Assembly: GCA_028277845.1 (NCBI GenBank)
Contig: JANQFL010000011.1
Coordinates: forward strand, 1 to 64,000
Source of the DNA: Sneathiellales bacterium
Lineage (GTDB): Bacteria; Pseudomonadota; Alphaproteobacteria; JANQFL01
Length of the DNA stretch: 64,000 nucleotides
Reading direction: 5' to 3'
Shown here: positions 36,236-39,147 of the stretch, in pieces
Numbering within the stretch: the first letter of the stretch is position 1
Layout of the letters: each line of letters begins with the position of its first letter
The notes under the pieces: model-generated
Told to the model about the DNA's origin: nothing
The model's input: only the letters and a program-made list of their open reading frames with translations
Database searches by the model: none
Program-made: the position numbers and the translations under genes

Positions 36236-36429
36236 GTGTGTCCGGTTCCCTGTGGCTGGCGGTGATCTCGTGCGGCGGCACTATACCGACATGGGCCGCC
36301 GCCGACCACCGGTCATCGCGCCACACCCGGCAGATCGCAAGGATTCCCAAAATATTGCCGAAAACCCGCAATGATCTAACGTTTTCTAGGCCTTCAATCC
36401 TTAACCATTGATCGCTATATTAGAGGTGT

Positions 36430-36825
36430 CGGGCAACCGACTATGGCGATAAACGCAATTCGGAATAAGCGTAACGGACCCGGGGGCAGTACCCGGCGCC
36501 TCCACCACAAGCACACCGGCGTTTCGACAACGCGGCCAAGATTTCCAGTGTGTTTCTGATGGGGGCGATACAGGATCGACGTGCGTAGTAAAGGGATTGT
36601 TTTCGCCCGGCATGATACCACCGTTATCGGGTCATCTTAATAGTTGCCAACGACAACTATGCTGAGGCTCGCCTCGCTGCCTAAGCAGCGCGGTAACCTC
36701 GTTTAAATTCGCCACGGCTAGCCCCGTGGTGTGGGGCCGCCCGCCGCCTAGCAACAGAAGGCGGGCACCTCTCATTCCGGAATCACCGTAAAGCGCCGCG
36801 AAACGCAACAGGGGTCAAAAACAAC
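36430..36825 (+). ncRNA. ssrA: Circularly permuted two-piece tmRNA
   Basis: The acceptor piece comes first: T-arm CCGGG/CCCGG (36480-36496) with loop GGCAGTA, acceptor strand CGCCTCC (36497-36503) and ACCA to 36507. A spacer (36508-36560) follows, then the coding piece beginning GGGGGCG (36561-36567), which pairs with CGCCTCC through one G-U. P2 strands are seen at 36594-36606 and 36446-36460. The tag frame from 36646 reads ANDNYAEARLAA, stop at 36682. This permuted order is typical of alphaproteobacteria; the precursor is cut in the spacer. A plausible -10 box TATATT lies at 36416-36421 (17 bp from TTCAAT). Outer ends are approximate, as the 3' end after the pseudoknots is not visible. The loop GGCAGTA departs from the usual T-loop. 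Confidence 0.92.
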
Positions 36826-36925
36826 CTCGAAATATCCGCGCATATGATTACACTGTGGCGGCCGGGTGGTTCATGTGTCATACGGGCGCACGGTCCATCT
36901 ATGTGAAACAGGAGAGGCCCCCACC

Positions 36926-37444
36926 GTGTCCCGCGATTACATGAACTATCACGCCATGATGGAAGACGCTCTGCGGTCGGTTATCCGCGACGCGTTGACC
37001 CGCGCGTCCGATGACGGACTGCCTGGAGACCATCATTTTTACATCACGTTCAAGACCGACTATCCCGGCGTGAACATACCGGACAGTTTGCGGGCCCGGT
37101 TTCCGGAAGAAATGACCATCGTTCTGCAGCACCAGTTCTGGGGCCTGGACGTGGGCGAGGAACTGTTCGGCGTCACCTTGAGCTTCTCGGATGTGCAGGA
37201 GCGCCTCGTCGTGCCCTACAGCGCCGTCACGGCTTTTGCCGATCCGAGCGTTCAGTTCGGATTGCAGTTCAGTGCCGATGGCGACACCGACAGCCAAGCG
37301 GTGGGAGCCGAGGGAGATTTGCCGGCGGCACTGCCGGCAGAAGCGACCGACGACCTGCCGTCCGCCGGAAACGAGTCAGGCGAAGAGAAAGCCGACAGCG
37401 ACACCGACAACGTCATTGCCCTTGACGCCTTTCGCAAAAAGTAA
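36926..37444 (+). CDS. sspB: SspB-family ClpXP adaptor
   Basis: A 172-residue SspB protein, alphaproteobacterial type. The folded domain (about 1-115) has HHFYITFKTDYPGVNIPD, FPEEMTIVLQHQFWGLDV and FGVTLSFSDVQERLVVPYSAV. An acidic disordered linker then leads to the C-terminal tail DNVIALDAFRKK, the ClpX-docking element (VIALDAFRK is the family's typical tail). It tethers ssrA-tagged proteins to ClpXP. The start is GTG 36926, 8 nt after GGAGAGG. It lies directly downstream of ssrA on the same strand. Confidence 0.9.
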   Translation: MSRDYMNYHAMMEDALRSVIRDALTRASDDGLPGDHHFYITFKTDYPGVNIPDSLRARFPEEMTIVLQHQFWGLDVGEELFGVTLSFSDVQERLVVPYSAVTAFADPSVQFGLQFSADGDTDSQAVGAEGDLPAALPAEATDDLPSAGNESGEEKADSDTDNVIALDAFRKK

Positions 37445-37536
37445 CAAACGTCCGTCCATAGCCTTTCACGACAACGCGGCGCCGGCTCACGGCCCAACCC
37501 TGACAGCAGGCGCCAACGCCGTCGAGGACCGCGATA

Positions 37537-39147
<1,611 letters not shown>

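Follow-up and report, generated by a model that had tools for sequence, protein, structure and literature searches.

The window analysed here, a 64,000-nucleotide stretch of DNA from a Sneathiellales bacterium, carries the gene for tmRNA, which rescues stalled ribosomes and marks their incomplete products with a tag, directly upstream of, and on the same strand as, the gene for the proteolysis adaptor SspB. Permuted two-piece tmRNAs are textbook for alphaproteobacteria, and alpha-type SspB is known to bind the tmRNA tag and to deliver tagged proteins to ClpXP. The tmRNA, the tag and the adaptor are all known parts. The question raised by the locus is whether their arrangement is conserved and whether the tagging RNA and its adaptor are transcribed together. 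The analysis described below indicates an arrangement that is conserved and plausibly operonic.

The tmRNA gene was identified by two approaches. ARAGORN made a single tmRNA* call in the window (36415–36775, + strand) with the tag ANDNYAEARLAA. The Rfam family RF01849 (alpha_tmRNA) matched over its full length (model positions 1–355 of 355) at 36389–36769 with 273.9 bits (E = 1.2e-78; gathering cut-off of 50 bits), and RF04321 (tmRNA_permuted) matched 36445–36684 with 150.9 bits. The acceptor piece lies 5' of the coding piece in the covariance-model match, which is the permuted order. The genome holds one tmRNA and one SspB. The acceptor stem formed by the two pieces has a G–U at the third pair, which we take to be the alanine identity mark.

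The promoter (36389–36427) has a CTTCAA-like −35 region and a −10 TATATT within CTATATTA, and is conserved inside the RF01849 model. Among 105 tmRNAs the promoter consensus (CTTtcA or CTT..A-N17-CTATATTA) is strongly conserved, and the window matches it. Transcription probably starts at about 36426–36430. The tRNA-like acceptor piece (36426–36507) ends in CCACCA, with the CCA end at 36507; its 5' end is placed by reference to the 82-nt piece mapped in S. meliloti (excerpts of PMC2873474). A spacer of exactly 53 nt (36508–36560), the removal of which by processing is expected, separates it from the coding (mRNA-like) piece (36561–36775; 215 nt), which starts with GGGGGCG. The tag reading frame and stop codon occupy 36646–36684, the tag ending in LAA, and a 7 bp 3' hairpin (GCCCGCC...GGCGGGC) is formed around the conserved CAACAGAA.

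The window tmRNA is an ordinary alphaproteobacterial split tmRNA, and its permuted layout is not special to this locus. It shares with the alphaproteobacterial two-piece tmRNAs (RF01849/RF04321) the full-length match, the permuted order, the CCA acceptor, the CAACAGAA 3' hairpin and a tag of the ANDN...LAA form. No notable difference from this class was seen, and the lengths are close to those given for Sinorhizobium and Orientia in excerpts of PMC2873474 and PMC7335160, respectively. According to the former, tmRNA pieces of 82 and 214 nt (the latter 1 nt shorter than the coding piece in the window) are stable in S. meliloti and the precursor is unstable. For Orientia, PMC7335160 describes a precursor together with acceptor and coding pieces of ∼80 and ∼240 nt, respectively, and cleavage in the spacer loop.

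The downstream gene (sspB; 36926–37444, + strand) encodes an alpha-type ClpX adaptor SspB. The Pfam family PF04386 matches the protein with 160.7 bits (E = 3.6e-47; curated cut-off of 27 bits). Similarity to PDB entry 2nys (AGR_C_3712p) spans the whole query, and that to 2qaz ('SspB Protein') covers residues 3–117 (E = 3.6e-37). The C-terminal LDAFRKK tail, presumably the ClpX-docking tail, is identical in 2nys. The protein resembles alpha-type SspB over its whole length, tail included, and differs from it by ordinary divergence. The start codon is assigned to GTG 36926 because residue 1 then aligns with residue 1 of 2nys and an AGGAG Shine–Dalgarno sequence is present at 36910. A sequence-only reading of the locus had described a permuted two-piece tmRNA with the acceptor piece first, a 53-nt spacer, the tag ANDNYAEARLAA and a gene for SspB next on the same strand, and each of these points is borne out by the searches. 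It had also placed sspB 100 nt after the tmRNA, a figure that is too small: with the start at GTG 36926, the gap is about 150 nt from the ARAGORN end of the tmRNA and 156 nt from the Rfam end. Alpha SspB was reportedly described by Lessner et al. in 2007, and Caulobacter CC2102 is presumably SspB. Excerpts of PMC1182365 and PMC2241609 list CC2102 as an alphaproteobacterial signature protein.

Conservation of the adjacency was assessed in three sets of genomes. Set 1 comprised 115 alphaproteobacterial genomes, one per family, which were searched for tmRNA and SspB. Both genes were found in 101 (SspB was missing from 12 and a tmRNA over the cut-off from ten). The tmRNA lies 5' of sspB, on the same strand and less than 1 kb from the SspB match, in 71 of these 101; six more keep the order and strand at a distance of 1.2–7.5 kb, five have the genes farther apart on one contig and 19 have them on different contigs. 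The count of 71 is a lower bound, because in two of the latter 19 genomes the contig ends less than 60 nt past the tmRNA 3' end. Set 2 comprised at least 118 named loci that are identical to the window tmRNA over 32 bases of the T arm, and so leans towards conserved tmRNAs. Among the matches listed, 97 of 118 have sspB on the tmRNA strand no more than 2.5 kb downstream. Of the 90 listed matches for which 1500 nt or more of downstream sequence exists, 79 have it no farther than 1.3 kb from the search anchor. Set 3, 16 alphaproteobacterial genomes from a phylum-wide draw that are absent from set 1, is less favourable to linkage than the other two: the genes are adjacent (<1 kb) in eight, in the same order 2.8–8 kb apart in six and unlinked in two, with distances worked out from two tables. 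At 18 alphaproteobacterial SspB loci, a tmRNA was called by ARAGORN in eight and by Infernal in nine, and six more of the same genomes have a tmRNA 2.8–8 kb upstream. The order and strand of tmRNA and sspB are deeply conserved across most sampled alphaproteobacterial families.

Genes have been inserted between the tmRNA and sspB in several lineages, and the separating genes examined vary; they include a chromate transporter with ChrB and a metal hydrolase with an M19 dipeptidase. Ten reading frames from split loci were tried, of which three had no Pfam family and two, both from one locus, may have been read on the wrong strand. At three of the split loci (L297, L298 and L299) the tmRNA and sspB are ∼2–4 kb apart with unrelated metabolic genes between them, for example chrB and a chromate transporter.

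The sequence-only reading had suggested joint regulation from the clustering on one strand. It had named a lack of conserved adjacency as grounds for refutation, but the conservation in 71 of 101 family-level genomes accords with the proposal, as does the length of the intergenic gap in many lineages. From the end of the tmRNA model to the sspB start, the gap is at most 50 nt in 27 of 72 cases in set 1 and at most 35 nt in 19; measured from the end of the hairpin in set 2, it is at most 50 nt in 22 of 86 loci among the matches listed. Gaps of this length hold little beyond a Shine–Dalgarno sequence and leave no room for a second promoter downstream of the tmRNA. With such short gaps, and no tmRNA-type promoter ahead of sspB, co-transcription by read-through from the tmRNA promoter is likely in many lineages. 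The part of the proposal that concerns the window is less firm, since its 156-nt gap has room for a promoter and this counts against read-through there. Judged from the sequence, read-through at the window locus is somewhat likelier than not. Joint transcription is not obligatory, because unrelated genes part the tmRNA from sspB in several lineages.

We consider it fairly probable that this is a housekeeping trans-translation locus in which sspB is expressed by read-through from the tmRNA promoter. One strong promoter (36389–36427) would drive a precursor consisting of the acceptor piece, the spacer and the coding piece. Processing would take out the spacer to leave two RNAs, which base-pair to form a two-piece tmRNA charged with alanine, as is known for the class. 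By analogy, the alpha-type SspB from the adjacent gene would bind the tag (A)ANDNYAEARLAA and pass tagged proteins to ClpXP. Polymerase that continues beyond the hairpin at the end of the coding piece would yield the sspB mRNA. The tagging RNA and the adaptor would thereby share a promoter, with sspB expressed at a lower level set by the read-through. A more far-reaching proposal, which we advance tentatively, is that most alphaproteobacteria have a mixed RNA–protein operon in which sspB is promoterless and depends on polymerase reading past the tmRNA 3' end, with precursor processing forming the 5' end of the sspB mRNA and fixing the proportion between tagging RNA and adaptor.

Alternatively, the two genes could be neighbours by conserved synteny, with sspB controlled separately by its own promoter in the gap. 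The window gap and about half of the linked gaps are long enough for one, the linked order survives where insertions would make a joint transcript longer or disrupt it, and some tmRNAs near sspB end in a hairpin and U-tract resembling a terminator. In the window, no tmRNA-type promoter or strong U-tract terminator was found in the gap (36776–36925), a generic sigma-70 and terminator scan of the + strand from 36236 to 37600 returned nothing, and folding of 36700–36945 gave no special structure (z = −1.04). In set 1, 41 of the 72 gaps (those 55–300 nt long with a coding control) were scanned with a model trained on tmRNA promoters, which weak or alternative-sigma promoters would escape. A score at the level typical of tmRNA promoters was reached by one of 41 gaps and one of 41 coding controls. 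The mean score was 3.1 for gaps and 1.9 for coding controls (P = 0.20), and gaps scored higher than shuffled gaps (P = 4e-5). No tmRNA-type promoter was found before sspB in any of the 87 named loci of set 2 scanned among the matches listed. Nine unlinked sspB genes, though necessarily transcribed, scored 0.2–13.0, none reaching the threshold of 16.3 used for the named set; because these also score low, the negative scan weighs little. Given the lack of signal above coding controls and the occurrence in both sets of gaps no longer than 50 nt, a separate promoter is rather unlikely to be the explanation.

Read-through could also take a special form, in which the 3' hairpin of the tmRNA is a leaky terminator that lets a fixed small fraction of polymerases into sspB and so tunes SspB to tmRNA output. 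In five linked set 1 genomes a U-tract comes immediately after the conserved 3' hairpin, and sspB begins just beyond it. This pattern is confined to a minority, however, and the window tail ACCTCTCATT is a poor U-tract with four T of eight. U-tracts after the 3' hairpin were compared between linked and unlinked tmRNAs for 103 of 105 tmRNAs in set 1 and, among the matches listed, for 100 of 118 loci in set 2 (of those left out, 11 lacked a recognisable hairpin anchor and the others had insufficient downstream sequence). At least four T of eight were present in 31 of 68 linked and 29 of 35 unlinked tmRNAs in set 1 (P = 3e-4), and at least five in 19 of 68 and 16 of 35, respectively (P = 0.08). 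The difference failed to replicate in set 2 (46 of 86 linked and 8 of 14 unlinked with at least four T among the matches listed; P = 1.0). We judge a tuned leaky terminator to be unlikely. Terminator loss as proof of read-through was likewise dropped, as it was significant at one threshold in set 1 and absent in set 2.

The gene order in the window between 35294 and 40851 is thyX (divergent, upstream), tmRNA, sspB, class I fumarase, fumC and a gene for an RHH_4 protein. Neighbours were compared in 49 of the 118 named loci, those with both flanks adequate among the matches listed; sspB is kept in 45, thyX in 15 and the fumarase gene in 27. Of the neighbours measured, sspB is the one most often retained. 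Mere inheritance under slow gene shuffling, without functional meaning, is a very improbable explanation of the adjacency when other neighbours are lost far more often, even though all of the examples are alphaproteobacterial and ARAGORN called no tmRNA within 1.5 kb of seven non-alphaproteobacterial SspB loci. The linkage may have arisen once. A search for relatives of the window returned genomes of the same class only. The gaps after sspB in the window are 92, 37 and 0 nt, so sspB may be the first gene of a longer operon. Segments of the order from thyX to the RHH_4 gene recur in named loci among the matches listed (for example L217, L196 and L189).

The locus is comparable to the ssrA–smpB clusters of other bacteria, in which the tmRNA gene lies beside the gene for a protein partner and for some of which an operon structure has been confirmed, as cited in excerpts of PMC4131195. 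In contrast to those clusters, the partner here is a proteolysis adaptor and not SmpB. smpB is on a separate contig, which rules out a wider trans-translation cluster. SspB is not mentioned in the text of PMC4131195. Full-text searches of open-licence papers showed no statement of ssrA–sspB linkage among the matches listed, a scope that lacks the founding alpha-SspB paper, and novelty is not claimed. Were sspB transcribed by read-through from the tmRNA promoter, one switch would set both the capacity to tag proteins and the capacity to read the tag. The linkage also provides a simple genome-level marker for alpha-type SspB.

Variation in the tag was seen in other genomes. Four genomes combine a tmRNA above the cut-off with the absence of an SspB match, and the ANDN start is lost in two of their four tags (AKSDYAEYALAA and ANESYAIAA); in the other genomes it is present in 71 of 84 called tags. 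Seven loci, each from a different genome, have unusually long called tags of 20–32 residues, some of which may be ARAGORN errors. These often contain a second AN-x-N-like motif, as if the adaptor site were kept behind an extension.
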